Source: Liolophura sinensis
Lineage: Eukaryota; Mollusca; Polyplacophora; Chitonida; Chitonidae
Direction: 5' to 3'
DNA: 64,000 nt
Assembly: GCF_032854445.1 (NCBI RefSeq)
Contig: NC_088295.1
Span: forward strand, 58,323,249 to 58,387,248
Shown: positions 1,440 through 56,860 of the stretch, piece after piece
Position numbering within the stretch: position 1 is the stretch's first letter
Layout of the letters: the number at the start of each line of letters is the position of its first letter
Notes under the pieces: generated by a model
Told to the model about the DNA's origin: nothing
Seen by the model: the letters and a program-made list of their open reading frames with translations, nothing else
Databases searched by the model: none
Position numbers and translations under genes: made by a program

Positions 1440-1479
1440 ATGAAAGACCTATTTACGGCACTTCTCAGCTTGTGGCAAA
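1440..1479 (+). CDS. Gene 1 exon 1: signal peptide
   Basis: Encodes MKDLFTALLSLWQ and ends in phase 1 at AAA|GTAAGT. The array gene has a matching 40-nt first exon (MTKLLTLFVSFWQ) and the minus-strand paralogue has one ending CFWQ. The hydrophobic core continues into exon 2 (ILSVFS). Confidence 0.8.
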
Positions 1480-4400
1480 GTAAGTACAGATTTACACAAC
1501 AAAACCTGAGTGTAAACTACTTGAAATGTACATTGTATGGTTTTTATTATCAATTTCGGTTGCATAAGCAACTGGATATTTAACTAAAACACAGGCTTGT
1601 TGACGTCCTTGTTTCAGTTTTGTCTGTCTTCAGTCAGTCAATCAAAGCACCAGGAGATGTCGTGGCCGGTCGTCCTTTTACCCTGGAGTGTAAGATAACC
1701 AGACCGACAGGTGACCTATTACCTCTCATATGGTACCATGATGCTGATAATGTCATATCCCGTATATATGCCACCCCTAAGTGTAGCCCATCAATACAGC
1801 TATCACTAGTTGGGTTATTCGGGGGATGTCAAAACGTCAGCGGTGGAGAGGTTTACACAGTAACGATAGAGAACGTCACGGAAAACACGGCCCGGGGCAG
1901 GTGGGGATGTCAGTATGGAAGCAGGGAGAACAATGTTACACTGGATATTAAAGGCAAGTGCAAATACTCAATTGAAAGAATTTTTAAAAGTTTTATTATA
2001 TCTACATCCTACATCTAGTCAGTCAGAGAGATTTACACAGTGAGGAAACAGATCGTCACTGTAGACACAGTCGGGAGCAGATGGTTATGTCAGTATGCAG
2101 CCAGGAGTCTCAATGCTACTCTGGAAGTACAAGGTACATGTGAATGTATATAATACAATGTATGTGGAAAACTAAACACTACAAAAAGGTTTTGACAAGT
2201 GTCACCTAATCCGGTGCCCTAAGGAGCACTGTCTATTAGGAGACATTAAATGGGTCCACGAAATAATTGCGTAACTAGAGCTAAGTGGATAAAATCTGTT
2301 ACAGTAATGCAGCGTATTTTTTAAAATAGAAATGCAAAAGTTGGGATTTCATTAACAAATATTTGTGATAAAACATTAAGACAGGAGACAAGATTCGCCA
2401 AAAAACCCTTTCAGAATTTCTTTATGTTCATTTCAGTAATGGTAACCCAGGTAACTCTGACGAACTCTTCAGATGTAGTGTTAGCGGGTGATCCCACTAC
2501 CTTAACCTGTGTGTCATCGGCCAGTAAACCCCAGGCCTGCATAAGGGCGTACATACGGAGTTCTGGTAGTGTCCGGGAGCTAGACCCGCATGACTGTAAC
2601 CAGGACTCCAACTCGGTGCAGACCACAAACCGGACACTGAGGTTTACAGCTAGAGCCGAGGAGAACGGAGCTGCGCTGTACTGTAACGCCTCCAACAGTG
2701 TGACGGATCCGCCTGTACAGTCACGAGTCAAAACACTCAATGTACAGTGTAAGTATTATGTTGTGTAATTAGGCTGTATTCGAAAAGAAAAAGGCCGGAT
2801 ATGTAGACTCCATACAGGAAAATAATGTGTGATAGTTGACTTTGTAATTGAATCAGTTTTAAGACTAAAAATGGATCTTTAAATAAGAAAGTATATATAA
2901 GTTCAAAGTAAAGTAAAAAAAACCCAACAAGATATCTTGTGTGACTGCCACTGTTCAACGAAGTGTAACTGGCTTTTTGTCAGGCCGTTTTATATTTTCT
3001 TTATGACAACTTGCGTGTCACTATTTAGACTACGTAGGAGGCAGAATATTAGATCTTAGTTAAAAGTCAAAAGCTCTGCGTCTAACTTGTAACTTCAAAC
3101 CAGAATAGGTAAACTAATTCAAGTTTCTAACTTCAAGTTTGTAAAGGCCTGTATTGGAATGTACATGGAACGTCATGTGAAAGACGATGGTCATGTCACC
3201 ACTTACGTGTAAAGTCACAGGATTCCTTGACTGTACTTGAGCTATTGGCATAGCCTATCACCTTTGGCAAGAAATTCTAAGAGCACCCTTTTAAGAGTCT
3301 TAGTCATGACCCTACTTGGTATCGAACGCGGGTCTCCTCTTATCCGACACTTGGTATCAGCGAAGTTGATAAATAAATTATACAGCATTTTGCTAGCTGT
3401 TGTACAAAAAAAAAGTGTCCATAATTTAACTATGGATGTGGAATGTTCTTGTTCACAGTAATACTAAAACATGCTCTTGTGACTAGTTGTTACCTGTTGT
3501 GTGTGTGGAATATGCAGGATAGTTCACAATAAATTACAATTTAGGCTATTGTCAAATCCTCTACGGACAGGCGTCCTCCTGTCGGGTTAGGTTAACAACA
3601 CAGGCGTGGAGCCTGGAGAAACACTGACCTTGACCTGTCAGGTGGGACAGGGGAATCCCCGACCAACACTCTCCTGGTCTCGGGGATGTGGTCAGGCAAA
3701 CACAGTCCCTGGTAATGGTGAAGGTCAGCACATGAGTATCAATATAACCGTCAGTCCGTCACTGAACCAGAAGACGTGTGTGTGTAAGGGGAGTCAGACT
3801 GGGTCGTTGTCAAGATGGTCGGGGCAGAAGAGCACAACATTTAATGTGCTGTGTAAGTTTTGGAAGATAAAAATTCAACACTCATGGGAGAATGGAGATT
3901 GTTGCATTATATTTACGAGCATGTCCGTTTTTTTTTTTTGCGTGTAGACGTTTAAGTACATTGGGACCTGTATTGAGTAATGAGTTTCTAAGTCCACAGC
4001 AAAGACGTGTGTTATAGGATATTCGAATTGGGGCAGGCATGCGTAAACTGCTGTTTTGGTTCACAAAGTACAGGACAGGTACAGGCATTCGTTGAAGTCT
4101 GGGCTGCTTTTGTACATAGCAATTGTAAAAGATTGTGTCTTTATATTTAAATTATCAGATAAACATTCATAAAAAGTGTTTTTTATATGTAACTGAAGAA
4201 GGCCTTGCTGACCTTGGCAGAAATAAAACGAGATGAGGGTGAAAGTCATGAAGAAACTACATTTGTCAAATAGTATAAGACGAGCGTTTCTAGCATTTAA
4301 AGAAAACAAGTGGGAATATTTTCTGTACTTAAGATGCCGCACATGAACAGTTTTGTTTAAGACGCTGTTCTTGACAATAATAATTCGATGATTATTTACT

Positions 4401-7400
4401 GATGAACGATGAAAACTGAAATCACCATAAGCATGTCTCAGCAGTCAAACGTCTTGATAGCATAAAGGTGACGGAGAACTCTAGAAGTGAGACTGACATG
4501 TAAGACAAGAGTATGAATTTAATGTTTCCCAATGGTATGATTTTGACAGCTTTAAAACTAATTAGGAATTGTTAGGTGAACTGTCTTATCTTTAGCATAC
4601 AGCCAATAAATGCCCAACGACAATTGTAGTTTTTGTGTTCATAACAGTTGGTCCTGGTGACGTACATCTCCGTATAGATTCCGGACAATCGGAAAACACA
4701 GTTACCGTCACAGAAAAAAGCACAGTGACATTTACATGTAACACTAGTGAGTCCAATCCTGCTGCCGTCCTCTCCTGGTACAACAACAGCAGCCCAATAG
4801 TAGCAGCAAAGCTATCAAAAGTGAGCTCACAGCGAGGTTCCAACTACGGATACCTGACCACACAGCGGTATACAGTGAGGGTTGATGGATATCAGGATGG
4901 TGATGTTATCAGATGTGAGGCTCAGAGACCTGGTAATGGAGACAGTAAACGTGTGTCTCCCAGTTTAATCCTGGATGTGATGTGTATTTATGTTAGTGTT
5001 TGTTGCTTTGGAAAATTTTGCAATTTGACAAAATATACCTTTCAGCCTAATTGACCAGTACAGTTTACAATTTGTAATTTTGATTTGTTCCAAAAGTTGA
5101 CGGAATAATGAAAAACGAGCAAAAGCTGTGGGCGTCATCCGCAAACTGCTAATAATATCATGTTTATTTGGCCTAGACATTTTGAAAATTTCAGGGGCCT
5201 TTGTACCGAAACCAAATCTAAGTTAGAGAATATATCCTGTCTGTCTCAACAGCATAGTCAACGTCACCGTTAACAGTTTTAGGCAACAATAGAGGCACCA
5301 AACTTTGCACGACAGGGAAGTTAGAGTACATTAGTTAGATGTAAAGGTGCCAGAGCAATCCAGTGTGTGTTGTGGCAGAAAAGTATTTTGTATGGATATG
5401 ATATATAATGCGGGACGGTTCGTTGTCTATGTCACATACTGTTTGTTTTTAACAGATTCACCCCGAATATTGTGTAACTCAACTCAAGTGACACTGTTCG
5501 AAGGCCAGAGATTGAAAATGTCATGTGACGTAACATCCAACGATGATGTCGTCATCCACTGGTATAAAAGTGGTCGTCGAATTGATAACGCTGTGACGAC
5601 AAACTCCCGAGGTCCTGCTCGGCGTGACGTCACCATGTCGACGGTAGAATATGAGTCAGCAGAAGCGAGGCTTTCCGGCGTGTATCAGATCGAGGCTAAT
5701 AACAGTATTGGATCATCAACTAGACAAATAAAAATAAGTGTGATAGGTACAAGTATTTTATTTACTAAAATACGCTGTAAAATTACTAAAAAGAGATACG
5801 AGTATACATGTATATATCTGCGTGGTAAAACGTCTTCCCATTTTATACAGTTTGACGTAAGTCTTCTGAATGAAAAGCTTTACCTTTGAAATATCCAGGA
5901 ATTTAAGCCTTAGACCGGAAGCCGTGTTGTATCTTGTAGGTTTATTATTGTACAAACTTGTGGAGCATGTCCCGCATTCTAAAGTTTGCTTTATATCGCT
6001 TCCACCACTAACGATTTTTTACAAAAAACTCAAACAACACCAAAGTCGTTGTGGTCACGGTGATTTATTGATAAACGTTGATCATAGGTCCGCACTAGGA
6101 GATCAGTGATAAGGCATTAAGCCGAAACAAGCCCACATCCGTCCAAAGGTCGAGCTTCTCTAGTGGCGACACTGATGTAGATGCTGTAGAGAGAGCGACA
6201 CAACTGCTGTAAGGAGTAAGGAGCGCATTCAACAAACTAAACGATAAACCAAAATTTAAGACACCTGAGACCTAATTTAGCTTGATGTTTTGGATTTGAT
6301 TACAAATTGAAAAGATGTACAATTACCAATATGTCATAGACTTATCGTCTATCCAGTTTAACAAACCAGAAGTGGTATGGATAAAACCGCAAGGCATGCT
6401 ATCTTGTTTGAAAATAATGCAAGAGACATGAGAGAAATATCATTGACCATCCCAGTATAAGGAGACAAATTTTATTCAACCTGAAATGATGTTATAAACC
6501 AAAAATGCCAGCTGGAAATCAGCATTGTTGCAACTGTATTATTTATTTTTCATTGTTAGAAGGTCAGTTTATACCAAAAGAGTTGCGGCTGATATCCTGT
6601 ACGGAAAACCAGACTTCTCTTGTATGGGCGTCTGGCATCGAAGACTCTCTGGTGGAGTACTATAAGCTGGAGTACAAAGGAAGAGAGAAGGGTTGGGAGG
6701 GAGGACTGGTCAGAAATCCGGGAAGGATAAAACTTGTGGAGACGAATGTGAACAATCTACAAGCTGGAGTGTTCTATCAGTTCAGACTTCAGCCAAACTC
6801 CGGCATAGCTTTGTCGGAGTACGCTACAACAAACTGTACTATTCAAGGTGGGTAAGATTTGTAATCTTTATACCGTCGAGATACTTTTGCACACAGATGG
6901 GTCAGTTTGAACTGCAGTCTAGGAAAATATTCAAGACAAAACACCTTTTCACTTATTTGTAGTTTATTAGGTAAGTACAAATACATAAATACAATGTTGT
7001 TGTAAATGTATAACTTCTTAAAGTTATGAACTAATATCGGTTTGTGAACTACCACATTAACCGCCCGGAAGGCATTTACAACTGTGGAACTCGGTCTTGT
7101 CGCCTGAGCGTGGTTTCAACGCTTGCGTACTCTTTCACATGTTAAAAACAGAACACTTAAATAAAGACCGAGCCCGAGTCTGGTGAATGCATTAGGATTT
7201 CCGGGGACTAAGTTTAGAAGAATGAAATAAATTTCACAACTTAGTGATTGATCACCGCGGAGGAGGCCAAAAAACGCCCTCTTGTGTCCTATTGGACCTG
7301 ATTTGATAGGATGAAGATGAAGCGAAAATTAGACCTGTATCACAGCAACAGACTGTGTAATGTTATACCATTGACCTACACTCTTGACTGAAACGTGTTC

Positions 7401-9342
7401 GATAGAGTTACGAAGTCCTCTTTTACACGTTTGTTCACTGAATCGTTTACAGCTTCACGGCCAATCCGTGGACAGAACAATGTCCCTGAAGCCGGCGTCA
7501 GTAAAGGTGGTATACTTGCCATAGGCGTTGTTATTGGTATTGCAGTCGTCACTATCATTTATCTTTCCGTGAGTTGCTGGCGGCGGCGAAAACCACATTC
7601 AAGAGCAAACAAAGGCTAGTTTCTTTCTTTTACCCACTTAAACAGTTGTTTTAATAAGTCTTTTTAATGTGTACATGTAAGACATGTGCATGTCAATTGG
7701 AGCCAAATGTCATGATGGTCCTGTTAACATTAAAACATTTTAGTTTTACTAACATGGCGTCACACCTTCGGCGCAGACCAGTGTACAAATATCTAACAGA
7801 GAAAGAGGACAGAAGTCTTTAATTGTATCTTATCTCGGCATAGTGAAGATTGACTTTTAAAATTCTGGATACGGATTGAAATTCAGATTACAACCAAATT
7901 ACAAATGTAATAGGGATTGGTTCTTGTGCCGTAGAGAAGCTATGACAGAAGAGTTTAATAACAGAGTTTAATAAAAATCCCATGTTTAACTTCTTTACGA
8001 CATCTGGCAATAGCGTCGAATTGATTAAACATGGGTGTATCCCAGTGTATATCGTATCACCATCAAAGTGGAAATGTTCAGTGCTTTTAGGAAAATTTGT
8101 ACGAAACACAGACATTTGACAATAATTCCATATCTTTACTTGTCCTCAGAGCACGGGTTTGACCAGGAGAATACAGAACAAGTCATGAGGTATACAATTA
8201 ACACTATGTGCTTTTTTAACAGTCCGTGATCGGACAAGGCCGCTGCTATGGTTACTATGTTCTCATGTGTCGATTTATCAAGCACTTTGTGGCTGTCCCT
8301 CAATCAAGAAAAATCCCCAGTTTTGTTTGCAGTCTGTAATTAGTGAGTGAATAATCAAGCAGTTTTCATACAGATATAGAATACAGGAGAAAAGAAAATG
8401 AAATGGCTGCGTATTGTTACATTGACAGGGTTGTTGAAGACAGGACATTGGAAGACAGAGGTGTTGCCGACACGGCTGGCTTCGAACAATTTCCACACGG
8501 TAAATTTAACATTATACGTGTTTTCTTTTTTTGTTTTTTTTCTGTCTTTTTTTCCGTTTGAGTATTGGGAACATTCTGCTGTAAAGAAATATTGGGCCTG
8601 TGTGAGCCATTTTGTAAAGGCTGTTAAAGTACATGTACTTTGGTTCATATTAGTACACGATTTTTTTTCTCTTTATCAATGGAAAAATTAAAAATTAAGA
8701 CATTGATTTCTGATCTTCACTGATTCTCTATAACGTAACATAATGACAGCTTGTATTCGGTTGCTTGTTGCAGGTCAGTATGAAGATCTGGACACCAGAC
8801 CAAGTTCAGGTACGATACTTTGATTTAAAACCATGTCCTTGTTCTGCTTCAAGATGTTATTCTGAACAAAACCTGACAAATAATTCTGTAAAAGTAAAGT
8901 AATTTACACCAAACCAAATCATAAATTTAACCACATTTCATTCCATTCTAGCTTCTTTCTTTTGCAAATGAAGATTTCGCCCCAAGAAATTTATCCTTTT
9001 TACTCTTTGTTGTCTCTTCACAAAACGTCCTATATTCTTAATTTGAATACGGTTAATTTTAAATGTTGCTTGTCTGAGCAACGCCTTAACGTCATAGTTG
9101 AGGTTCAAAATGATTGATTTTTATAAGCAACGTAAAAATGCCGAAAAGAAACCCTTGGCTGAATTCTGCAATGCTCCTCACAGATCGCCCATATATTTAT
9201 AAGTGCCTGCTTTTCTCATGTTCTGTAATACCTTTACATGTGTTTTCATTCAGCAGGTCCACATTACGAGGGGCTCACAGGAACAACATCGCCATCCACA
9301 TCTCGTGAGAACAGAGTGTACGAGAATGCCACTGTGTTCTGA
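1440..9342 (+). CDS. Ig/FN3 transmembrane receptor with ITAM-like tail (12 exons)
   Basis: Exons: 1440-1479, 1618-1953, 2437-2748, 3604-3852, 4648-4983, 5456-5746, 6560-6847, 7453-7614, 8150-8189, 8429-8499, 8774-8809, 9257-9342. They total 2,247 nt, which is 748 codons plus stop. Order: signal peptide, V-type Ig, four Ig domains, FN3, membrane span, tail of about 85 residues. Most exons are symmetrical phase 1-1, as is usual for Ig and FN3 domains. The tail holds YEDL, nine residues, then YEGL (ITAM-like spacing), and VYENATVF at the C-terminus (a YxN site). Family knowledge suggests a cell-surface adhesion or immune-type receptor; the ligand is unknown. The domain order recalls nephrin-like proteins but no orthology is claimed. 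A paralogue lies at 49379-55313 (-). Two introns need GC donors. A half-V exon relic lies in intron 2. Confidence 0.82.
1618..1953 (+). CDS. Gene 1 exon 2: V-type Ig domain
   Basis: 112 codons, phase 1-1. B-strand Cys in FTLECKI, core Trp in LIWYHD and F-strand Cys in WGCQYG. An extra Cys pair (PKCSPS and GGCQN) is shared with every V-type copy in the window. The exon ends at AAG|GCAAGT, a GC donor in its best-known strong context. The nearest GT (1958) would break the frame to exon 3. Confidence 0.85.
2023..2133 (+). pseudogene. Half V-type Ig exon relic in intron 2
   Basis: An open 37-codon stretch reads like the C-terminal half of a V-type domain (EIYTV, then WLCQYAARSLNATLEVQ) and ends at CAAG|GTACAT. 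A CAG at 2024-2026 is out of phase, but the one at 2020-2022 gives phase 1-1, so inclusion as a mini-exon is possible. It lacks the B-strand Cys and core Trp and most likely descends from a second V exon like the one kept in the minus-strand paralogue. Confidence 0.6.
2437..2748 (+). CDS. Gene 1 exon 3: Ig domain
   Basis: 104 codons, phase 1-1, flanked by TTTCAG and GTAAGT. The exon at 51612-51923 (-) in the paralogue has exactly the same length. Cysteines occur in TLTCVSS and ALYCNAS, with an extra pair (ACIR, HDCN). The core Trp is missing: this gene reads ACIRAYIR where the paralogue reads ACITWYIR. Confidence 0.85.
3604..3852 (+). CDS. Gene 1 exon 4: Ig domain (short C2 type)
   Basis: 83 codons, phase 1-1. 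VEPGETLTLTCQV, LSWSRGC and KTCVCKG give the B Cys, core Trp and F Cys. The start after ACACAG at 3603 is the only one in frame, because upstream AGs lead to stops. No counterpart was found in the minus-strand paralogue. Confidence 0.75.
4648..4983 (+). CDS. Gene 1 exon 5: Ig domain
   Basis: 112 codons, phase 1-1. VTFTCNTSES, VLSWYNN and VIRCEAQRP mark the disulfide and core Trp. The donor is ATGT|GTATTT, weaker than its neighbours but the only one preserving phase. It is absent from the minus-strand paralogue. Confidence 0.8.
5456..5746 (+). CDS. Gene 1 exon 6: Ig domain with displaced cysteine
   Basis: 97 codons, phase 1-1. Reads SPRILCNSTQVTLFEGQ, LKMSCDV, IHWYKSGR and GVYQIEANNSIGSS. The usual F-strand Cys (YxC) is Ile, while a Cys has appeared in the A strand. 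The paralogue exon 50343-50624 shows the same change, so the domain seems to have a non-standard disulfide. Confidence 0.82.
6560..6847 (+). CDS. Gene 1 exon 7: fibronectin type III domain
   Basis: 96 codons, phase 1-1, same length as the paralogue exon 49785-50072. SLVEYYKLEYKG, the Trp in LVWASG and YQFRLQPNS match FN3 strands B, C and F. Cysteines near both ends (ISCTEN, TNCTIQ) are conserved in the paralogue and may form an extra bond. Confidence 0.85.
7453..7614 (+). CDS. Gene 1 exon 8: membrane span
   Basis: 54 codons. A stalk is followed by the hydrophobic segment GGILAIGVVIGIAVVTIIYL and the stop-transfer CWRRRKPHSR. The frame needs a GC donor, AAAG|GCTAGT. Reading through instead would stop after one more codon. 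Confidence 0.75.
8150..8189 (+). CDS. Gene 1 exon 9: cytoplasmic tail
   Basis: A 40-nt exon after TTGTCCTCAG, reading EHGFDQENTEQVM and passing from phase 1 to phase 2. Its donor is ATGAG|GTATAC. Support comes from splice signals and from phase agreement with exons on both sides. Confidence 0.6.
8429..8499 (+). CDS. Gene 1 exon 10: cytoplasmic tail
   Basis: A 71-nt acidic exon (RVVEDRTLEDRGV, then ADTAGFEQFPH) after ATTGACAG, entering in phase 2 and leaving in phase 1 at CACACG|GTAAAT. It restores the phase needed by the next two exons. Confidence 0.6.
8774..8809 (+). CDS. Gene 1 exon 11: first tyrosine motif
   Basis: A 36-nt phase 1-1 exon encoding GQYEDLDTRPSS, between TTGCAG and CAG|GTACGA. 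YEDL is the first half of the ITAM-like pair. Confidence 0.7.
9257..9342 (+). CDS. Gene 1 exon 12: second tyrosine motif and stop
   Basis: Encodes GPHYEGLTGTTSPSTSR followed by ENRVYENATVF and TGA. The acceptor is a tandem CAGCAG, so use of the first AG would add one Ala. A polyadenylation hexamer AATAAA lies about 300 bp downstream. Confidence 0.72.
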
Positions 9343-9640
9343 AGACTCAATGCAATTTTTGTTATCCGGCCATAACAAGATAAATACTAATTCCTGAATC
9401 ATAATCTGTATATGTGAAGACGACATACATGTACTTGTAATTAAACATATCGTTACGAAATAGTGAGAAAGTTTTTAAATGTTACAATAATATATCAATG
9501 TTATAATAACAAGTATATCATAATCTCTACGGGATTCTTAAAACGAGCCGTTATGTTGTCTTACATTAAATATTGTTTCTTGATAGAGAACTGGTCTATG
9601 TGGTCGCCGTCTTATTTTACTCTCAATTCGACTGCATATA

Positions 9641-9646
9641 AATAAA
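9641..9646 (+). terminator. Candidate polyadenylation signal of gene 1
   Basis: A canonical AATAAA about 300 nt after the stop codon, outside any recognised SINE tail. Sequence match only. Confidence 0.4.
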
Positions 9647-12547
9647 AGAAACATTCCCCAGCTGAAACAAACCTCATACTCCGCTCCGTTTTGATAGGCA
9701 TTTTGATCAGACAGCTGTGGTGTTGGAAGGAAATGTGGGAAACAGATTAATAAGAAAGCAGAATGTAAATTTAGCCGATTGTAGGAGAGAACTTCACATT
9801 TTGCACGTGGGAGAGAACTATGCTAGGTGTTTATTGGATAAATGCATTATTTTCGTGTTGTCATTTGACTTTTGGCGTTTCCGTTTTCGTAACACATTTG
9901 TTTGGTGTTGCATCACATACAGATCCCATCGTGAAATGCTTCATGATGAAAGTCGAAGGAAATTCTGTAATCACGAGTAAGGACATCAACAAATCAACCA
10001 CTGGCCACAATCCAAGTTCGAATTCACAGTGCTTAAGGGAGTGAAAACTTGAGGAAATGAACGGAACCTTCCGGGATCAGTCATATCGGAGTGTTTCTGT
10101 GGACAACACATTGTCTTAACTGTCCATAACACACAGTTCAGCAAATTTTCGGACATTTCAAGACAATGCTCCACATTCTAGTAAACAGGTGCCAATGTCC
10201 ATATGCTTATGGTAGTATACAGACATAATAGATCGCCTTGCTCAATACACCATACATGGCCTCTAGCCCACCCATCAAGTTTAGTCCGACTAGACTTTGG
10301 CGTGTCCCTTTGGAAACCGTAAAGTATCAATTGTAGGTCTGACTCAACAAATACTTTCCCTTCCCTCTACGAGTGGGGGCAAAAAAGCAGACACATTAGT
10401 TGCTGGTTTCCTGCCTTGAACGTGATGTCAAAATACGTTTTTTCAGCGTTGTCCGCCATGTAGTCTTAGGCACTTGCAATGCACACAGCATTTGATTTGT
10501 GCGTCTGAAATTTTCTGTATGCATAAATCCGATCTGATTGGATAACGGTTAAGTTCTGTTTAATTTCGATAAGAAGACGTGGCCGTCGGACAAATATATG
10601 ATACGAGTGATAGCTTAGCAATATACCTGATTTAACGAAGATGGATGTACTTGAGAAACTTTTGAACATATCCAAAAGAGCTGGATTGGCATAGTTCCCA
10701 CGTTCTGGATTCTAATGGGTGTACTGGTGAAGTAATGAAGCCATTAGTTCCCATGATCAGCGAGGGACAGATCATGCACTTGTACCAGTTATGAGTGCAA
10801 ATTCCAACGCAGTGATTTGTGTCGTCTTGCACGCAGTCCTTTCGTTAAGAGAATCATCCATATGTATCATGACCTCCATTTCATGATGATCTTGTCGCAC
10901 TCTACTGTATATGCTTTGCTCTCCGTCCAGGAAGGTCTGCCTGCAGCCTGCAGATGGTCGTGGGTTTCCCCGGGCTCTGTCAGGTTTCCTCCCACCATAA
11001 TGCTGGCCGCCGTGAAATATTCTTGAGTGCGTCGTAAAGCACCAATCAAATGAAAAAATAAATAAATATATATGCTTTGTGTGTGGGCAAACCCTGAAAC
11101 ACACTGGACGACTAAGAAAATGTCTGCATATGTCAACGAACTAATTATTGTATTCTACGCATTATGTCTAACAGATAATTGATTTGCGAAATCCAGAACG
11201 GTGTGATGTTTAGAAGTTAAATAAAGGCATTTGCATAACGACGCTCATGCAAAGAGTGACATTGCTCTTTGCTCTCCATGATGAGGGAAAGAATCCAGAA
11301 ATACCACACACAAATTCTTGTAGTAATTACGTCTGACGTTAATTCAAATCGTCACACAACACACAAGATCTAACAAATTTTACAATACGAAACATGTACA
11401 GGCTATATGCAGAACCTTTTGGTATATATAACTATCTGAAGGATAACCCACTGCGTCAAAATTAAAACTATTTGTCTCATGGTAAAGTCGGCGTGACAGG
11501 AAACATTTGTGGTCTTTGTGTGAATAAATGTTAATGGTGCATACGCTCAAACGACAGTCTAATTATTTACACTTTGTTTTTTCGAGGCTTGTACTGAATG
11601 TTGTTTTGGTAAATGATCTTGTGTGTGTTACCCAGGAACGTCCATCATGAGTGACGCCTGATTCTCTGACAGTCCTCAGTTTCGACGCCTACATTTATAC
11701 GCTATTGCCTCATCTTAGGGAGATCTTGTTCTCTGGCTACAAATGACAATGAAGGCCGCATTATTATGATTATAAACGCACACGTATCTTTACAGTTTTC
11801 AAAGTAACCGACTACCAAGATAGTAAAGGAATGCCCAATTTGATCCTGCCACACATAACATTCAGGTACTTGTCTGATTGTTGATTATCGACAGACTCCA
11901 GAACGTTCCCTAACTTTACAGAGCCCAGTTTCGTACCTGAAGGTGGGGTTATTGATGGGATGCTATGTTAAAGGCAAAGAAGTACATGTCAGATGAAAGA
12001 TCGATAAATGTTGTCCGGAAAAATAGTTTGGTTTATTTTTTAGAATATTTTTCGACTGAGTAAAATGCATTTAAACTTTGGATTTTACTGTGGCCTTTTC
12101 TGACTATGTTGGGACCAGTAATGTCACTTGAGCTTTTTGCCGCTGGACACACACAGAGGTCATCTTGTAACGTTGACCGCAAGTGTGTCAATGTATTTAT
12201 ACGCAGTGAGTAGAAATGTTCTGAACAAAGAACTGAAGTGGTTTGACTGTACCTAAAATGTTGTACATTACCCAGCAAACAGGTGTGGACCTACTTTCTT
12301 TGGTTGGCTGGTTTTGCATAAGTTCCATATTGCAGACTGAAGTCAAATTTTCAAGGGTTCATTCTTGAAAAAAAAACAAAAAAAAAACAACCTAATATGA
12401 AAATGCCGAAGGATGAACTCACTCTCAGCATCATGAATGATTGTAAAGCTGACGTCTGAGTACTAGTTGTGCTATTGCAGCTGACCCGACGTGTACATAC
12501 CTATATACATCGTGTAATCCGAGTAAGCTGTGGCCTCAATGTAGGTT
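9647..12547. other. Intergenic region between gene 1 and the Ig-array gene
   Basis: No gene seen. It contains the block at about 10605-11070, which reappears directly behind the Ig array, and an upstream block shared with gene 1 near its right end. The 11.1-12.5 kb part shows nothing recognisable. Confidence 0.6.
10605..11070 (+). repeat. Direct repeat, left copy (with truncated SINE)
   Basis: This stretch is clearly homologous, with small deletions, to 19702-20040 immediately after the Ig array. Shared segments include the one beginning TTAGTTCCCATG and the region around CATATGTATCATGACCTCC. Its right part, about 10927-11070, is the 3' half of a family-1 SINE. The two copies flank the whole Ig-array gene. 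Confidence 0.75.
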
Positions 12548-12576
12548 TTATTTTTACTTCCGGATTGACACTGTTA
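12548..12576 (+). promoter_or_regulatory. Conserved upstream block with ETS-type core (array gene)
   Basis: Counterpart of the block upstream of gene 1, again containing ACTTCCGG followed by ATTGACA, about 200 bp before the start codon. Confidence 0.4.
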
Positions 12577-12766
12577 TGTATGTATCTAGCATGGGTTAGT
12601 CTGGTTATGTGGATATTTTCACGGACAGAGTAACGCAACTTAAATTACAACAGTTTAGCTGTCTTGTTGCCCAGTGTATGGTGCAGTAACAGAGAACTTC
12701 TATTCTGGAATGGAGATCTGTGCATCGAGCGCATGGCCTACCAGGCCTACCAAGCTGACAGTAACA

Positions 12767-12806
12767 ATGACAAAATTACTAACTCTGTTTGTCAGCTTTT
12801 GGCAAC
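12767..12806 (+). CDS. Array gene exon 1: signal peptide
   Basis: Encodes MTKLLTLFVSFWQ, 40 nt, ending in phase 1 at CAAC|GTAAGT. Joined to the first V exon it continues LPFLPG, completing a typical signal sequence. The open frame extends upstream to an earlier ATG, but this start matches the same-length exon of gene 1. Confidence 0.75.
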
Positions 12807-15800
12807 GTAAGTATACTGTGTGTATGAACCGACAAAATCTCCTGAACTATGTATAAAATGCACCTGGACTGTTTGTAACTGAACCTGGACTGTGTGTAAA
12901 ACTGCTCCGGCTAGCACAGCGTAATGACCCAGGAGTCTCTCACTAATGCGGTCGCTGTGAGTTCAAGTCCAGCTCATGCTGGCTTCCTCTCCGGTTGTAA
13001 GTGGAAAGGTCTGCACCAATCTACGGATGATCGTGGGTTTCCCCTGGGCTCTGCCCGGTTTCCTCCCACCATAATGCTGGCCGCCGTCGTATAAGTGAAA
13101 TATTCTTGAGTACGGCGTGAAACACCAATCAAATAAATAAATAAATAAATAAAACTGCACCTGGGTGTGTGTAAACTGCACCCGGACTGTGTGCAAACTG
13201 CAACTAGACTGTGACATCTCTGGCCAATTATTTGTAATATACCTTGTCACATCTTCATTATTTTATGTTACAAGGGTACATCCCTCCGATTTGTAACTCC
13301 TACGTTTCAGTTTCAATGGTGTCAAGTCTGACTATATCAGCGGTAGGAGTATGTTGGCACTAGAACTGGACTATAGTTAAAAGATTCCTCACCTCTATTG
13401 CTATAAGAGAAATATGGTTCAAGTTGACAGTGTAGCCTTGTGCCTAAGCAAACAAACATGCAAACAATATTTTCAACTGTTGTCATGGATCATCTATGCA
13501 GATCATTTGTATCCGCTCTTTGTTATATTTCAGTGCCCTTTCTCCCGGGTCTGTCAATCTCTACAGCAGGTGATGTCGTGGCCGGTCGTCCCTTTACCCT
13601 ACAGTGTAAGATAACCAGGCCGACAGGTGACAGGTCTGTTGTCACCTGGACCCGTGATGATGGTCAGGCCTCATACCGTATATACGCTACCCGTGAGTGT
13701 ACAGCGTCAATACAGCTATCATCACAATCACCAGCTGGGCTATCAGGGGGATGTCAACACGTCAATGGGGTAGAGGTTTACACAGTGACGATAGAGAGCA
13801 CCACAGAAGACACGGGCCGGGGAAGATGGAGATGTCAGTATGCAGGCAGGATTGTCAGTACTACTCTGGATGTTCAAGGTAACGACTTTTAACATAATCA
13901 GATGAGATATGGTTATGTCAGCATAGACTGAAGAGTGCCAATGTCAATCTCGACGTACAAGGTAAACGTGTCATAGTGTGATTCGAAACATTGCAGAAAG
14001 ACCCACCTCAGTAACACTCGGTATTTCCTCAAGAAATTTCCTCTCAAATTCGATTCCCATGTCACTCATTCCTTACATGTTCTCCATCACGTTTATTACT
14101 AACACTGTCATTGAGTGCATGAAGACTCATAGGGGACACAAATGACTTAAAATTTAATAGTTTTGTTTATTTGTGGATTAACTATGTGCATGTGTGGTAA
14201 ACTGCCAGTATGAAATAAAGTCATGTGTAGGAGCTGATTATTAGACTATAAATACGTATTTTTGTTTGCTTGTTGTTCAAATACATGTATGTAGAATATT
14301 GTTTAATATTGAAACAGTGCTCATAGTCGACGGCTTCTCACGTGTTGGTGGTTCGTTTTTATTGTACAGTGAATGTACGGGTCTTTACATCTGGTGTCTG
14401 CAGCGTGATATACTCGTGAGTCAGCACTGTATGTATGTTGGCACTAGAATTGGACTGCAGTTAAAGGATTCCTCACCTCTATTGCTATGAGAGAAATATT
14501 GTTCAGGTTGACAGTGTAGCCTTGTGCCTAAGCAAACAACATCCAAACAAAATTTTCAATTATGGTCATGGATTATCTATGCAGATCATTTGTGCCCGCT
14601 CTTTGTTATATTTTAGTGCCCTCTGTCCCGGGTCTGTCAATCTCTGCAGCAGGTGATGTCGTGGCCGGACGTCCCTTTACCCTACAGTGTAAGATAACCA
14701 GGCCGACAGGTGACAGGTCTGTTGTCACCTGGACCCGTGATGATGGTCAGGCCTCATACCGTATATACGCCACCCGTGAGTGTACAGCGTCAATACAGGT
14801 ATCACCATCATCACCAGCCGGGTTATCAGGGGGATGTCAACACGTCAACGGTGAAGAGGTTTACACAGTGACGATAGAGAACGCCACAGAAGACACGGGC
14901 CGGGGGATATGGAGATGTCAGTATGTAGGCAGGATTGTCAGTACTGCTCTGGATGTTCAAGGTAATGGCTTTTAACATAATCAGATGAGATATGGTTATG
15001 TCAGCATAGACTGAAGAGTGCCAATGTCAATCTGGACGTACAAGGTAAACGTGTCATAGTGTGATTCGAAACATTGCAGAAAGACCCACCTCAGTAACAC
15101 TTGGGATTTCCTCAAGAAATTTCCTCTCAAATTCGATTCCCATGTCACTCATTCCTTATATGTTCTCCATCACGTTTATTACTAATACTGTCATTGAGTG
15201 CATGAAGACTCATAGGGGACACAAATGACTTAAAATTTAATAGTTTTGTTTATTTGTGGATTAACTATGTGCATGTGTGGTAAACTGCCAGTATGAAATA
15301 AAGTCATGTGTAGGAGCTGATTATTAGACTATAAATACGTATTTTTGTTTGCTTGTTGTTCAGATACATGTATGTAGAATATTGTTTAATATTGAAACAG
15401 TGCTCATAGTCGACGGCTTATCACGTGTTGGTGGTTCGTTTTTATTGTACAGTGAATGTACGGGTCTTTACATCTGGTGTCTGCAGCGTGACATTCACGT
15501 GAGTCAGCACTGTATGTAAACTGAACAAAAATATAAACGCACCAACCTATAAATCCAAGTCGAACTGACCATTATTTGGAAATGGTCAAACCAGTGATAT
15601 ATTTGTTTAATGGGTGCTTCGTGTTGCACAACACAAGTGGTCCCATTGCAATTGACCATTCTGAGTGGGTGTACTCATATGCTGAAAAAGTCAACCCGTG
15701 TGACCAATGGGGCGTGACAGTGCGACGGTCAGTGTGCGTGAGCATCACGCAGACATTCCGTACAGCTTGCTCAATAAAAGGCCACCCCAAAGTGTGGATT

Positions 15801-18800
15801 TGTGCCACATGCCGACATGCCACAGATGTCACAAATCATGAGGGAGCGTGCCATTGGCATGCTTAATGCTGGGTTATCTGTTACTGCTGTGGCAGCCCAA
15901 CTGAATGTGCATCATTCCACTATCAGCCGCCTGAGGGACTCGCTTCAGAGAGACTGGTACCACAGTCAACTGCGCACATGCCCGCCGGCCACGTGTGACC
16001 ACGCCCGCACAAGACCAGCACATGCGGCTCCAACACCTGCGTGATCGGACCCGCTCAACAACCAGAACTGCTGATGAGTCTGTCGGTCTTCACAACAGGC
16101 GGATTTCAGCCCAGACAGTCAGGAACCGGCTGCGGGAGGCTCATCTCCGGTCACGTCGACCACACCAAGGCATCGACCTAACGGTAGCCCGACGTCGGAC
16201 ACCACTGGACTGGGCCAATATTCATGTGCGCTGGACACTTGCTCGTTGGAGGACTGTGCTCTTTAATGACGAATCTCGCTTCCAGCTGCACCATGCTGAT
16301 GGCAGAGTTCGGGTTTGGCGCCGTGCTGGTGAGCGGTATGCTGACGCTGATGTCCTGCGACGGGTGGCTTATGGTGGCGGAAGTGTCATGGTGTGGGCAG
16401 GCATTTGTCATGGACAGCGCACACGTCTGCATTTCATCGACGGCAACCTTAATGCACAACGTTACCGAGATGAAATCCTTAGACCTATTGTTGCGCCCTT
16501 TGTGGTGCTCCATCATTTGACTTTCCAACACGACAACGCCCGCCCACACACTGCCAGGATATGCAGGGACTTCCTTGAGGAGGAGGATATTCCTGTCCTC
16601 AACTGGCCGCCGTATTCACCAGACATGTCACCCATTAAACACCTCTGGGATGTTCTGGATAGGCGTGTCCGCCACCGGGTTCCAGTTCCCCAGAACATTC
16701 GCCTAATGCGAGTGGTACTCCAGGAGGACTGGGACAACATCCCCCAGCCCACAATTGACAACTTTTTGATGTCCATGCGTCGCCGGTGTACAGCTCTACG
16801 CGAGGCTAATGGTGGTCACACGCGTTACTGACGTCTGTGAACTTGGCCCATTGACCCCCATTGTCCTCTTCCTGCCATTACTGCAGGGCTATTGCTTGAG
16901 AATTGATTGCAATGCTCGCAAATTAAAGCTGAATTGTTCAAAACTATGTCCCATTGTTTTGGGATATGTACTATATTTTGTGATATAAAAATAACAGAAA
17001 ATATTTGTTCGTGCGTTTATATTTTTGTTCAGTGTATGTTGGCACTGGAATTGGACTGCAGTTAAAGGATTCCTCACCTCTACTGCTATGAGAGAAATAT
17101 TGTTCAAGTTGACAGTGTAGCCTTGTGCCTAAGCAAACAACATCCAAACAAAATTTTCAATTATGGTCATGGATTATCTATGTAGATCATTTGTACCCGC
17201 CCTTTGTTATATTTTAGTGCCCTCTGTCCCGGGTCTGTCAATCTCTGCAGCAGGTGATGTCGTGGCCGGTCGTCCCTTTACCCTACAGTGTAAGATAACC
17301 AGGCCGACAGGTGACAGGTCTGTTGTCACCTGGACCCGTGATGATGGTCAGGCCTCATACCGTATATACGCCACACGTGAATGTACACCATCAATACAGA
17401 TTTCCTCACAATCACCAGCTGGGCTATCAGGGGGATGTCAACACGTCAACGGGGTAGAGGTTTACACAGTGACGATACAGAACGTCACAGAAGACACGGG
17501 CCGGGGAAGATGGAGATGTCAGTTTGCACGGAGGAGTGTCAGTACTACTCTGGATGTTCAAGGTAACGACTTTTAACATAATTAGATTAGATATGGTTAT
17601 GTCAGCATAGACTGAGGAGTGGCAATGTCAATCTGGACGTACAAGGTAAACGTGTCATAGTGTGATTTGTAAACATTGCAGAAAGACCCACCGCAGTAAC
17701 ACTTGGGATTTCCTCAAGAAATTTCCTCTCAAATTCGATTTCCATGTCACTCATTCTTTATATGTTCTTTATCACGTTTTTTACTAACACTGTCATTGAG
17801 TGCATGAAGACTCATAAGGGACACAAATGACTTAAAATTTAATAGTTTTGTTTATTTGTGGATTAACTATGTGCATGTGTGGTAAACTGCCAGTATCAAA
17901 TTAAGTCATGTGTAGGAGCTGATTATTAGACTATAAATACGTATTTTTGTTTGCTTGTTGTTCAGATACATGTATGTAGAATATTGTTTAATATTGAAAC
18001 AGTGCTCATAGTCGACGGCTTCTCACGTGTTGGTGGTTCGTTTTTATTGTACAGTGAATGTACGGGTCTTTACATCTGGTGTCTGCAGCGTGACATACAC
18101 GTTAGTCAGCACTGTATGTTTGTTGGCACTAGAACTGGACTGCAGTTAAAGGATTCCTCACCTCTATTGCTATGAGAGAAATATGGTTCAAGCTGACAGT
18201 GTAGCCTTGTGCCTAAGCAAACAACATCCAAACAATATTTTCAACTGTGGTCATGGATTATCTATGCAGATCATTTGTACCCGCCCTTTGTTATATTTTA
18301 GTGCCCTCTGTCCCGGGTCTGTCAATCTCTGCAGCAGGTGATGTCGTGGCCGGTCGTCCCTTTACCCTACAGTGTAAGATAACCAGGCCGACAGGTGACA
18401 GGTCTGTTGTCACCTGGACCCGTAATGATGGTCAGGCCTTATACCGTATATACGCCGGCCGTGAGTGTACAGCGTCAATACCGGTATCACCATCATCACC
18501 AGCCGGGTTATCAGGGGGATGTCAACAGGTCAACGGTGAAGAGGTTTACACAGTGACGATAGAGAACGCCACAGAAGACACGGGCCGGGGAAGATGGAGA
18601 TGTCAGTATGCAGGCAGGATTGTCAGTACTGCTCTGGATGTTCAAGGTAACGACTTTTAACATAATCAGATGAGATATGGTTATGTCAGCATAGACTGAA
18701 GAGTGGCAATGTCAATCTGGACGTACAAGATAAACGTGTCATAGTGTGATTTGTAAACATTGCAGAAAGACCCACCGCAGTAACACTTGGGATTTCCTCA

Positions 18801-19745
18801 AGAAATTTCCTCTCAAATTCGATTCCCATGTCACTCATTCCTTATATGTTCTCCATCACGTTTATTACTAACACTGTCATTGCCTGCATGAAGACTCAAA
18901 GGGGACACAAATGACTTAAAATTTAATAGTTTTGTTTATTTGTGGATTAACTATGTGCATGTGTGGTAAACTACCAGTATGAAATAAAGTCATGTGTAGG
19001 AGCTGATTATTAGACTATAAATACGTATTTTTGTTTGCTTGTTGTTCAGATACATGTATGTAGAATATTGTTAAATATTGAAACAGTGCTCATAATCGAC
19101 GGCTTATCACGTGTTGGTGGTTCGTTTTTATTGTACAGTGAATGTGCGGGTCTTCACATCTGGTGTCTGCAGCATGACATACACGTGAGTCAGCACTGTA
19201 TGTATGTTGGCACTAGAATTGGACTGCAGTTAAAGGATTCCTCACCTCTGTTGTTATGAGAGAAATATTGTTCAAGTTGACAGTGTAGCCTTGTGCCTAA
19301 GCAAACAACATCCAAACAAAATTTTCAATTATGGTCATGGATTATCTATGCAGATCATTTGTACCCCGCCCTTTGTTATATTTTAGTGCGCTCTGTCCCG
19401 GGTCTGTCAATCTCTGCAGCAGGTGATGTCGTGGCCGGTCGTCCCTTTACCCTACAGTGTAAGATAACCAGGCCGACAGGTGACAGGTCTGTTGTCACCT
19501 GGACCCGTGATGTTGGTCAGGCCTCATACCGTATATACGCCACCCGTGAGTGTACAGCGTCAATACCGGTATCACCATCATCACCAGCCGGGTTATCAGG
19601 GGGATGTCAACACGTCAACGAGGAAGAGGTTTACACAGTGACGATACGGAACGTCACAGGAGACACGGGCCGGGGAAGATGGATATGTCAGTATGGAGGC
19701 AGGTGTCATAGCGTGGCAGTATTCGTACCTGATCTGATTTATTGA
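12767..19745 (+). CDS. Secreted-type protein with five tandem V-type Ig domains
   Basis: Exons: 12767-12806 (signal), 13534-13878, 14617-14961, 17218-17562, 18302-18646, 19387-19745. They total 1,779 nt, which is 592 codons plus stop if all are joined. Each middle V exon is exactly 345 nt and phase 1-1, so any subset can be spliced without breaking frame. No FN3 or membrane exon follows on this strand, and the last exon runs to a stop inside foreign flanking sequence, so the predicted product is secreted. The domains match the V domain of gene 1 and of the minus-strand paralogue. Alternatives are mutually exclusive cassette use, or a decaying array. I infer recent unequal-crossover amplification, because the unit period is constant at about 1,084 bp. 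Confidence 0.65.
12901..13153 (+). repeat. Family-1 tRNA-derived SINE in intron 1 of the array gene
   Basis: Lacks the very start of the tRNA-like head but keeps the B-box region (GAGTTCAAGTCC), the body and the ATAAATAAATAAA tail. Antisense frames over it are artefacts. Confidence 0.85.
13534..13878 (+). CDS. Array gene V-type Ig exon, copy 1
   Basis: 115 codons, phase 1-1, acceptor TTTCAG and donor CAAG|GTAACG. It contains FTLQCKITRP, VVTWTRDD, RECTAS, GGCQHV and WRCQYAG. Centre variant: IQLSSQSP. It has LSISTAGD where copies 2-5 have LSISAAGD. Confidence 0.82.
13901..13961 (+). pseudogene. Half-V exon relic in unit 1
   Basis: Reads EIWLCQHRLKSANVNLDVQ in an open frame and ends at a splice-donor-like CAAG|GTAAAC. 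It begins only 22 bases after the preceding donor, so it has no room for its own acceptor. It corresponds to the relic at 2023-2133. Confidence 0.6.
14617..14961 (+). CDS. Array gene V-type Ig exon, copy 2
   Basis: 115 codons, phase 1-1, acceptor TTTTAG and donor CAAG|GTAATG. Variants: IQVSPSSP in the centre, NGEEVYT, and GIWRCQYVGR near the F strand. Confidence 0.82.
14984..15044 (+). pseudogene. Half-V exon relic in unit 2
   Basis: Same open relic as in unit 1, ending at CAAG|GTAAAC. Confidence 0.55.
15519..17034 (+). mobile_element. Tc1-like DNA transposon, 1,516 bp, inactive
   Basis: Terminal inverted repeats carry ACTGAACAAAAATATAAACG at the left and its complement at the right, and they differ only at the outermost base. 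They are flanked by TA target duplications at 15517-15518 and 17035-17036. Array units 1, 4 and 5 supply the empty site (CACTGTATGTATGTTGGC in two of them), which fixes the boundaries. The transposase inside is frameshifted and lacks the catalytic Glu. Confidence 0.93.
15802..16831 (+). pseudogene. Tc1/mariner-family DD34E transposase, frameshifted, DDK
   Basis: The N-terminal helix-turn-helix part lies in one frame (15802 to about 15950: SVTAVAAQLNVHHSTISRLR). The rest lies in another frame, entered near 15950 at ETGTTV and continuing to 16831. The catalytic region shows FNDESRF (first Asp), FQHDNARPH (second Asp) and SPDMSPIKHLWD. The third acidic residue, normally Glu in PIEHLWD, is Lys, with the 34-residue spacing intact. 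Frameshift and DDK together imply a dead copy, mobilisable only in trans if its ends are functional. Confidence 0.9.
17218..17562 (+). CDS. Array gene V-type Ig exon, copy 3
   Basis: 115 codons, phase 1-1, acceptor TTTTAG. Variants: ECTPSIQISSQSP, NGVEVYT, IQNVTED and WRCQFARRS. It shares its central SSQSP..NGVEV segment with copy 1 rather than with adjacent copies 2 and 4. Confidence 0.82.
17585..17645 (+). pseudogene. Half-V exon relic in unit 3
   Basis: Slightly more diverged relic; still ends in CAAG|GTAAAC. Confidence 0.5.
18302..18646 (+). CDS. Array gene V-type Ig exon, copy 4
   Basis: 115 codons, phase 1-1. Variants: TRNDGQALYRIYAGREC, IPVSPSSP and GGCQQVNGEEV. Confidence 0.82.
18669..18729 (+). 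pseudogene. Half-V exon relic in unit 4
   Basis: Same relic as in the other units, but the donor GT has become AT (CAAGATAAAC). Confidence 0.5.
19204..19705 (+). repeat. Ig-array tandem unit 5, truncated
   Basis: Matches the other units until about 19701 inside the V exon. From there it continues into sequence homologous to about 10605 onward. Confidence 0.85.
19387..19745 (+). CDS. Array gene terminal exon: truncated V domain fused to flank
   Basis: The V domain is normal to WICQYGGR. It then changes to CHSVAVFVPDLIY and a TGA instead of the usual STTLDVQG and donor. The change point coincides with the array breakpoint, so the last G strand is replaced by flank-derived residues with one new Cys. 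It may be a true 3' exon of a secreted protein or the broken end of the array. Confidence 0.6.
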
Positions 19746-20040
19746 AGGTGGATGTACCTGACAAACTCTTGAAGGTATTAGTTCCCATATTCAGTGAAGG
19801 ACAGATCACGCACTTTTACCAGTTATGAGCGCAAATTCCCACTTAGCTGTTTCTGTCGTCTTGCACGCAGTCTCCTCGTTAAGAGAACGATCCATATGTA
19901 TCATGACCTCCATTTTGTAATGATTTTGTTGCGTTCTACTTTATATGCTTTGCTCTCTTACCAGGAAGGTCTGCCTGCAGCCTGCAAATGGTCGTGGGTT
20001 TCATCGGACTCTGCCAAGTTTCCTCCCACCATCTTGAGGG
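19702..20040 (+). repeat. Direct repeat, right copy, with truncated SINE
   Basis: Homologous to 10605-11070. It includes a truncated piece of the same family-1 SINE from about 19968, which stops early. It marks the distal border of the amplified segment. Confidence 0.75.
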
Positions 20041-20475: not shown

Positions 20476-23211
20476 CAAGGTTAACTACTGTGCCACAGAT
20501 GACCCCGAGTGTCAGGTTATTACCTTGTAATCAAGAGACTGACTATCGTGTCGGGATTTACCTAAAATTTCTTGTCCAGCCCTCAGCAGAATGACATGGC
20601 TATAGTTTTGACGGAAACTTCATAAAACTTTGTAAACTTGTGTGGCCTTAGGGTACTATGACCTACACGAAGCCTATTGAGGAAAGCTGTAAATGTACGA
20701 GACATATAACTTGGGATGTTTTGTAAATGTGGCCCTTGTCGATGTCGTTGTCTGTGGATTGTGGATGTGGTTTTCTTCAGCATGACGTCACAGATAGCAG
20801 TACAGCTTTCTAATAATTGTCAAGACCGGTCTGCCACACGGAGACACCATTGGGACATGCCGGAGACAATGTGGAACAATCTTGATTTCATTAGATTAAC
20901 TTGACTATCATGAATAAGCTTATAAGTTTCATTTCCAGTTAGTAAAATGAAGATATGGATATTTTTTGCTCATTGACCAGATCAAAGTAAATATACTGAC
21001 CGACAAATATCGACTGTAAACCAAGCACTCACTAATCGTTTTACTACCCTGCATATGATGTCCAAACTGTACCAAGTTGGAACACACACGCTCCATATGT
21101 TTTGAGGGTCCATGAAAATTGTTTTCTATTCGTGCATGCCATTATCAGGTGGATGTTTTCAGCTCGATTTGTTAATCTGGAACCGCAACACATATTTGCT
21201 TTCTTCATTAACCTGACTTATTTTTATCATGATTCAGTGTTCGAATAGTAAATTTATTCAAAATGATTCATGAAATATTAAGAAGTATTTATCAATTACT
21301 GTTTTGTCCACTTTGCAGGAGAAATGCGATCGAGACGTGTCTCCCGTGACTATTTAAGGCATTTTAGTTTAATTTACTTTAAATTTTAAAGCTATACAAA
21401 TTATGTAAACAACAGTTAAAAATGCATGTTTGTACATTTTGTTTAAGATGTTTAAGTTTTTAGATGCAATTCCAGCATATCTATGAGCTAGTAGTTTTGT
21501 TCTGTATTCCATTGTCATGTTTTCTTTACTTTAATGAATTATTATACATTTATATAACAGTTATTGTTTTGATTGCGTTTTGTTTATTTTGGGGGAGGGT
21601 TTGTCATTGTGCATTTTACAGGGTGATCAAGACGTTGCCTTGCCGTCATGCTTGGCTAGGCTACATTTTAAATCCAGTTTTCGGCAATTTTTGACATACC
21701 TAGTAAGCAAATATTTAGGTACCACTATTTTTTCGTTGTTCATCCGCTGGCTCCTTCCACAAATTGATGCCTTACAAACCGACACCGCACAAATCTGTTG
21801 GGCAGCCTGTGTATTTATACATCAGTGACATTTAAGATTCCACACGATGTCACTCGTATCTCTTTCAACATCTTTCGCAATCACTACCCTCAGAGAGACA
21901 AAGTAAGCCGATATTTTATTTGATTATGTAATCCTATTTATCACATACCTCGAAGTCTCTCACCTTAAAGAACTGCCCATAGAGCAAAACGTAACCTTCA
22001 CGTGGTACCTTCTATTATATTCAGATATTCATTACGCAGGTGTTTTACTCAGGTACATTGAATAGACGGTGTGTGCCACTTACTTTAGACGAAGTTTAAC
22101 TGGGATAATGCGATGCATTCCTGTATCTCTGCTTCTAGCAATGTGCCGCAAAATCATCTTCAAAACTTGTATAATATCTACATTTATATATTCGTATATA
22201 TAAATATATTTATGTTCATATAACGTGTTTAATACCTCATAGGTGAATGGTGTGTCCGGGTGTGTTCTCAAAAGTATCAAGCGCAAAACTACACAACAGA
22301 AAGCTGATACCGAGGTTACCTACAATATAACAGGCTCATATTACATCTGATCCCCGAAGAATACAGATGTTCCTTTGTCCGTACGATCGTAAACATGACG
22401 AGGGTCGGGAAGACATCTAACACAAATTGCCGATCGGTGGGTATTCATTTCTCAGCCGATACTGCGGAGTCAGTCTGAGAACAAAGAACGTCACATATTT
22501 CTACAGTGACTCAACTCCACCCGACAAACCATTGTCGGCACATGTGAGACACGTATTCAGGTACGCTCGTCCCAGGGGCATAAGGTCACACAGCTGTTGG
22601 TTTCAGTTGAGAGCTTGGATTGGTGTTATGTCACGTTACCAATGTCAATGACGAACGCCATTTGGTTTGATAGCCTTGTAGGGACTTTTTATGGTGGTCC
22701 GTACTTTGCGGCATAGAGAAAACAGTAAATCGATCGTCGCCGTCGATCAAAATAATCCATGCGACCCACTGCATCTGCTATAGTCTTTGTTTTTTTCAAA
22801 TTGATCAAAATGAACTATACTAAACCAAACTCAATCTAGATCTTCCAGTAGTTTTCAGCTTATGGGTACAGCTTATGCTTCAGTACATATTACTTTCGGA
22901 ACATAGCATTGTTTTGTAACAGTCGCTAAGAAAGAGTGGTAACGGTACTTTAAGACATACAACCCAATAACCACCGACAGCCTGATGATATATGGTTGAA
23001 TTTCCGACATTCTGTTTCTTCCACTCACTGCTTGTCGCCCCAGTGTTCTTGCACATGTATATCTATTTTCATCTAAGCATCTAATTAGGTCAAGGACGCA
23101 TAATGCTTTAAAGAATATAAAATAAACTAATCCATATCATGACGAAGAATGAAAGTTAGTCACAGCCGTCATGAGCATGTTTCAAGAGAAACGGCTAGAA
23201 AAACTGAAAAA

Positions 23212-47675: not shown

Positions 47676-47850
47676 TGTGTCTTCTCTGGAGCAGGTAACA
47701 AGCAGTACACAGTGTCTTCTCAGGGGCAGGTAACAAGCAGTACACAGTGTCTTTTCAGGGGCAGGTAACAAGTAGTACACAGTGTCTTCTCAGGGGCAGG
47801 TAACAAGTAGTACACAGTGTCTTTTCTAATGCCAGTAGGTACAGTACACC
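47676..47850 (+). repeat. 35-bp minisatellite
   Basis: About five copies of a 35-base unit starting AGTGTCTTCTCAGGGGCAGG, with starts at 47711, 47746, 47781 and 47816. Confidence 0.9.
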
Positions 47851-49378: not shown

Positions 49379-49509
49379 TTAATTGAGTGCTAGCTTTTTC
49401 TTGGCTCTTCGCCGCAAAAAACATGCCACGGCAACAACTAAGATGGCGAGTACGACGAACCCAACTGCAAACCCCACACCAAACATTTCTGCTGTACTCA
49501 GACCTGCAT
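49379..49509 (-). CDS. Gene 4 exon 7: membrane span and stop
   Basis: NAGLSTAEMFGVG leads into the span AVGFVVLAILVVAVACF, then LRRRAKKKLALN and TAA. No GT donor occurs before the stop, so the short tail looks genuine. Confidence 0.8.
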
Positions 49510-56337: not shown

Positions 56338-56860
56338 GTCACACATCAGAGTACGTCTCTTGACAGGAAAGCTTTTGTGTAGACAGACAACAGACTGGAC
56401 AGGACAGCCCTGCTATACACAGACAACAGACTGGCCAAATGGCGTAACCTCGGATAGCCAATACATAGTGTCACACATCAGAGAACGTCCTCTGACAGGG
56501 CTGGCCTAGAGCAAACAGACAACAGGCTGGCCAAATGGCGTAACCTCGGATAGCCAGTACATGGTGTCACACATCAAAGAACGTCCTTTGACAGGACTGT
56601 CCTTGTATACACAGACAACAGACTGGCCAAATGACGGAACCTCGGATAGCCAATACATATTGTCACACATCAGAGAACGTCCTTCACAGGACTGGCCTAC
56701 TGCAAACAGGCAACAGGCTGGCCAAATGGCTTAACCTCGGATAGCTAGTACATATTGTCACACATCAGAGTACGTCCCTTGACAGGACAGCCCTGGTATA
56801 CACAGACAACAGACTGGCCAAATGGAAAACCTCCCGCGATAGCCAGTGCAAAGTCCTAGT
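56338..56860. repeat. Tandem repeat, about 96-bp unit, five copies
   Basis: Units start TCACACATCAGAG at about 56339, 56471, 56567, 56662 and 56757. Each has AACAGACTGGCCAAATGG and ACCTCGGATAGCC. The first unit is longer because of an internal duplication. It lies about 1 kb upstream of gene 4's start. Confidence 0.88.

Follow-up and report, generated by a model that had tools for sequence, protein, structure and literature searches.

A tandem array of V-type immunoglobulin exons in a chiton is probably the orphaned, amplified head of a copied ITAM receptor

Molluscs possess FREPs, diversified secreted immune proteins of the immunoglobulin superfamily (IgSF) that combine immunoglobulin (Ig) domains with a fibrinogen domain. 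Membrane-bound relatives are also known: CgIgIT2 of the oyster Crassostrea gigas has five Ig domains, a transmembrane (TM) segment and an immunoreceptor tyrosine-based activation motif (ITAM), and the allorecognition complex of Hydractinia, with the Alr genes, holds 41 IgSF genes (PMC11999971). The VCBPs of amphioxus and Ciona have a secreted layout with V-type domains in tandem (PMC2632668, PMC4757023). Here we analyse a window of 64,000 nucleotides (C1:58323249-58387248) from the assembly of the chiton Liolophura sinensis, in which a signal-peptide exon is followed by a tandem array of V-type exons. We consider it probable that this array is the orphaned and amplified 5' head of a tandem copy of an ITAM receptor, a birth-and-death by-product with little or no selected function.

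The original prediction compared the array with VCBPs. Both indeed have V-type Ig domains in tandem and a secreted layout, the V fold of the array being a predicted one. However, the chitin-binding domain that follows the V domains in VCBPs was not found: the six-cysteine chitin-binding pattern is missing from the + strand between 19745 and 26600, and scanning the array protein against Pfam gave no such domain. Because this domain is missing and the V exons belong to the local ITAM-receptor family, from the head of which the array derives, we reject an identity with VCBPs, and the proposed likeness is not supported. The intact neighbours of the array are, by plan, much like CgIgIT2, also from a mollusc: counting the tip, they have five Ig domains, and they share the single TM and the classic ITAM. 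The chiton genes add an FN3 domain, a hypervariable V tip and a tandem cluster, whereas the array keeps the tip only. Compared by layout, the Alr genes likewise form a cluster of invertebrate IgSF genes with domains of V- and I-set type, but they belong to another phylum and their layout is otherwise different. FREPs are similar in being diversified secreted molluscan IgSF immune proteins, but no fibrinogen match was obtained when the array protein was scanned against Pfam. A literature search on chiton immunoglobulin expansions, with partial coverage of the literature, gave no result.

The exons of the array are much as they had been described from the letters alone (Table 1). One signal exon precedes five V exons, each entered in phase 1 and four of them 345 nt long, and the series ends in a stop; joining these exons gives an open frame of 592 codons with no internal stops and only canonical splice sites (for V exons 1-4 a YAG acceptor and a GTAA donor, each in phase 1). 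Since the four full V exons share one phase and are each a multiple of three nucleotides long, any combination of them preserves the frame, as had been claimed. The fifth V exon is present and in frame but incomplete: around 19704 it breaks off and runs into a copy of intergenic DNA. Over their full length the units are 94-95% identical at the DNA level, well above chance. The V exons start 1,083, 2,601, 1,084 and 1,085 bp apart. Hence, the strict period of 1,084 bp stands as a unit of 1,083-1,085 bp, but it is interrupted between units 2 and 3, where a Tc1-like transposon accounts for the longer distance. About 10 other near-complete copies of this transposon are found in the genome (95-97% identity). 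Shortly past the V exon, the four full units, and also the neighbouring receptor gene A, carry the decayed 3' end of a second V exon that ends in a donor-like GTA.

The 5' part of the array can be traced to gene S, an intact receptor 33 kb away. Gene S has the signal exon and first V exon as in the array, a decayed second V exon with a stop, and then Ig2-Ig5, FN3, TM and an ITAM tail; its head lies in the upstream segment that is copied in the array. Positions 7620-14345 of the window are 94-98% identical to C1:58296000-58304025, and the duplication reaches back to about 6560 via an FN3 exon (97.9% protein identity). In the alignments, the duplicated block comprises the 3' half of one receptor, then intergenic DNA, and from gene S the upstream region together with the signal exon and V exon 1. 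Membership of the array in the receptor family is thus a partial one: signal exon and V tip are present, and signal exon and upstream DNA are common to gene S, but the exons for Ig2-Ig5, FN3, TM and the ITAM tail, which genes A and S both have, are absent up to gene B, the next receptor gene downstream.

At the 3' end of the array, everything from 19705 onwards copies intergenic DNA at 10607-10998, which also lies upstream of the array (alignment score 58; shuffle maximum 31.5). The unique part of this intergenic DNA has three copies genome-wide, all within the receptor cluster. Since the terminal exon is fused to this copy, the last 13 residues of the array protein and its stop are, going by the alignment, borrowed from non-coding DNA. 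Between 19.7 kb and gene B no family Ig2-Ig5, FN3, TM or tail exon was found, so that the predicted lack of a membrane exon is borne out. TM-like stretches at 20711-21600 were rejected as candidates; they lie near stops and match none of the family TM exons. Downstream of the array stop there is no AATAAA or ATTAAA for 3.3 kb, the first being at 23121; in gene A, by contrast, three of these motifs lie no more than 300 bp from the stop. The DNA downstream of gene S and of four other receptor genes has no match to the 3' flank of the array, so that the lost body need not have been a copy of that of gene S. Deletion would be the simplest cause of the junction between V exon 5 and the intergenic DNA.

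Sequence has also moved within the array. Sites that divide units 1-4 two against two mostly group 1 with 4 and 2 with 3 in the 5' intron, 1 with 3 and 2 with 4 in the exon, and mostly 1 with 2 and 3 with 4 in the 3' intron, and this shift along the units is significant (18 sites, permutation p=0.00015). In the 5' intron gene S sides with unit 1, but its exon is closer to unit 3 (Fisher p=0.0036, from one of the four comparisons that were made). Judged by these site patterns, the units are mosaics between which sequence has moved at about exon scale; hence, sequence has probably also moved between the array and gene S, in either direction.

Taken together, we propose the following history. A block spanning the 3' half of one receptor up to the first V exon of gene S was duplicated within the cluster. 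The V exon in this copy was multiplied into tandem units about 1,084 bp apart, probably by unequal crossing-over. The last unit is broken inside its V exon and joined to the intergenic copy, with the body exons lost, presumably by deletion, and the units have exchanged sequence at about exon scale. A transcript starting from the copied upstream region could be spliced into a protein of the secretory pathway of at most 592 residues. Because it would have neither an anchor nor an ITAM, this product could not signal and could at most act as a soluble binder or decoy.

That the array exons have a V-type fold is well supported by structure prediction. The predicted structure of an array V exon has high confidence (predicted local distance difference test, pLDDT, 93.8), and among known structures it most resembles antibody VH and T cell receptor (TCR) V-beta domains, with Z of about 13 (TCR V-beta: Z 13.4, root-mean-square deviation 2.3, 102 residues aligned). 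The V-type label of the original prediction is upheld on this basis; it rests on the predicted fold since the Pfam scan did not report the exon as V-set. A sequence search of the PDB gave weak matches only (best E 0.026). Ribosomal_S30 and similar Pfam matches of the 592-residue protein were rejected; they reach significance in no single stretch and resemble repeat artefacts. Compared with the other V exons of the family, array V exon 2 shows 43-81% identity; the family has conserved cysteines at 24, 55, 73 and 100 and is strongly variable at 33-46, 62-64, 99 and 103-108.

One could argue, in line with the secreted five-V protein that the original prediction had offered as one option, that the array is instead a functional gene. 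Expressed from the copied promoter, its soluble five-V product would serve as an opsonin, or as a decoy for ligands of the neighbouring ITAM receptors, with avidity provided by five tips. Several observations count against our preferred explanation and in favour of this one. All five V exons are open and all splice sites intact, and the signal exon is shared with the intact receptor S. Differences between units fall on family-conserved positions less often than expected (2 hits, 6.0 expected; p=0.025). This points to some constraint, but variation brought in by exchange could be another explanation. Even the junction in V exon 5 need not ruin the domain: with the borrowed tail, which is predicted to provide a substitute last strand, mean pLDDT is 90.4 and that of the last block 70 (using an alignment of normal V domains). 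Selection tests on the array are, however, weak. Changes among units 1-4 (13 synonymous, 26 non-synonymous; neutral expectation 28% synonymous) follow a pattern close to neutral. The chance of no stop arising in 45 neutral substitutions is 0.15, and the intact frame is therefore no proof of selection. The density of variable sites does not differ significantly between the exon and all intron sequence (p=0.11), with p=0.025 against the 3' intron alone. Add to this that the protein would end in borrowed non-coding sequence and that a canonical poly(A) signal is missing for 3.3 kb. Selection and fold results neither prove nor exclude a function of the array. We regard a selected decoy as rather unlikely and rank it below a by-product, but both rank well above a donor reservoir or alternative splicing.

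A donor reservoir, whose V cassettes diversify the tips of neighbouring intact receptors through germ-line gene conversion, would fit the exon-scale mosaics, the divided affinity of gene S (its exon nearest to unit 3, its flank to unit 1) and the fast evolution of V tips in the family. Yet tandem repeats are expected to exchange sequence even without any role, gene S is the only receptor shown to have tracts in common with the array, and the array may be the recipient, so that we think this improbable. Slightly more improbable still is a double role, in which the array would yield a soluble multi-V decoy and also donate V sequence to the membrane receptors by exon-scale gene conversion, an invertebrate counterpart of pseudo-V donor arrays. 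Suppose that the assembler had misjudged the copy number or the V exon 5 junction. The units are alike enough for this, and the assembly (GCA_032854445.1) is based on HiFi reads at 14-fold coverage with a mean length of 8.3 kb, about that of the array (PMC11068029). But the units can be told apart, one has a unique transposon insertion, the window contains no N, and the junction joins sequences found together at no other site, which makes such an artefact very unlikely. Least likely of all are alternative V cassettes, an option of the original prediction, here taken as spliced singly onto a receptor body. Four complete V exons of the same phase with a length divisible by three would suit this, but there is no downstream constant exon for them to join: on the same strand no Ig, FN3 or TM exon precedes the unrelated CLCA gene and the opposite-strand gene B. 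In Dscam-type cassettes a constant exon lies on both sides, whereas the array has the upstream one only.

Table 1. Features of the array and its surroundings, in window positions
Feature	Position	Strand	Details
Signal-peptide exon	12767-12806	+	40 nt, MTKLLTLFVSFWQ, phase 1 donor GTAAGT, open frame; counterpart in gene S
V exon 1	13534-13878	+	345 nt, open frame
V exon 2	14617-14961	+	345 nt, open frame; fold predicted
V exon 3	17218-17562	+	345 nt, open frame
V exon 4	18302-18646	+	345 nt, open frame
Terminal exon (V exon 5 truncated at ~19704, plus 13 borrowed codons)	19387-19745	+	359 nt; TGA stop 19743-19745
Tc1-like transposon, intron V2-V3	15518-17035	+	1,518 bp; DDE_3 transposase, frame broken
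Decayed second-V-exon 3' ends	2027-2136 (gene A); 13910-13963, 14993-15046, 17594-17647, 18678-18728 (array units)		
Upstream (promoter-side) DNA	11380-12766	+	copy of DNA upstream of gene S; within 11380-14345, 95.6% identical to C1:58301057-58304025
Intergenic DNA copy joined to V exon 5	19705-20032	+	matches 10607-10998; 85% identity over 19770-20032
Gene A, paralogous receptor	1440-9342	+	signal-V-Ig-Ig-Ig-Ig-FN3-TM-ITAM tail
CLCA-type gene	24761-45409	+	next gene after array
Gene B, paralogous receptor	49379-55310	-	signal-V-V-Ig2-Ig5-FN3-TM, short tail; two V exons

Seven receptor genes with ITAM-type tails are lined up head to tail, and the array closes this series. They are gene A and six further genes of the same plan upstream on the same strand (C1:58264-58322 kb; L023-L028), some of which have broken or missing exons. 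The ITAM-type and short-tailed paralogues that had been noticed next to the array are genes A and B. The tail of gene A (YEDL-9-YEGL) fits the ITAM pattern. Its Ig4 exon has no obvious phase-1 GT donor (4978-4990) and its V exon apparently uses a GC donor (1953-1958); the gene may be partly impaired. In L025 (C1:58286634-58286714) a cysteine stands in place of the second ITAM tyrosine (GPHCEEL), and the motif looks broken. Local tandem repeats with units of 48, 96 and 35 bp lie inside gene B and on either side of it (52315-52602, 56398-56850, 47677-47823), and the 3' part of the CLCA gene has an inverted partial copy at 59155-61436 on the - strand (70-79% identical). Scans for tRNA and Rfam families found no matches in the window. 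Elsewhere in the assembly, whose species name was later changed from Liolophura japonica to L. sinensis (PMC12441733), one contig (G000:C99, 108,685 bp) has seven COX1 copies at intervals of about 15.5 kb, apparently a concatemer of the mitochondrial genome.

Genome-wide there are 57 matches to the V exon and 45 to Ig2, fragments counted, from which we estimate a family of about 40 genes. The family genes examined have one or two V exons; a run of five was seen only in the array. Across a sample of family members omega is 0.5-1.3 for the V exon and 0.24-0.67 for the Ig2-FN3 exons, and by this comparison the other receptor exons change far more slowly than the V tip. Two family V exons 4.3 kb apart (L048 and L049, C1:60789 and 60785 kb) are identical in protein sequence and lack the usual first cysteine and core tryptophan.

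What looked like a VCBP-like gene is hence better seen as a case of clustered immune-receptor genes breaking and reshuffling, in which the signalling body disappears and the variable tip multiplies and swaps in tracts of roughly exon size. The surrounding cluster belongs to a chiton whose V-tipped receptor genes number about 40; many of them have ITAM tails, and their V tip evolves fast. It makes diversified ITAM-based recognition in molluscs a directly testable question.
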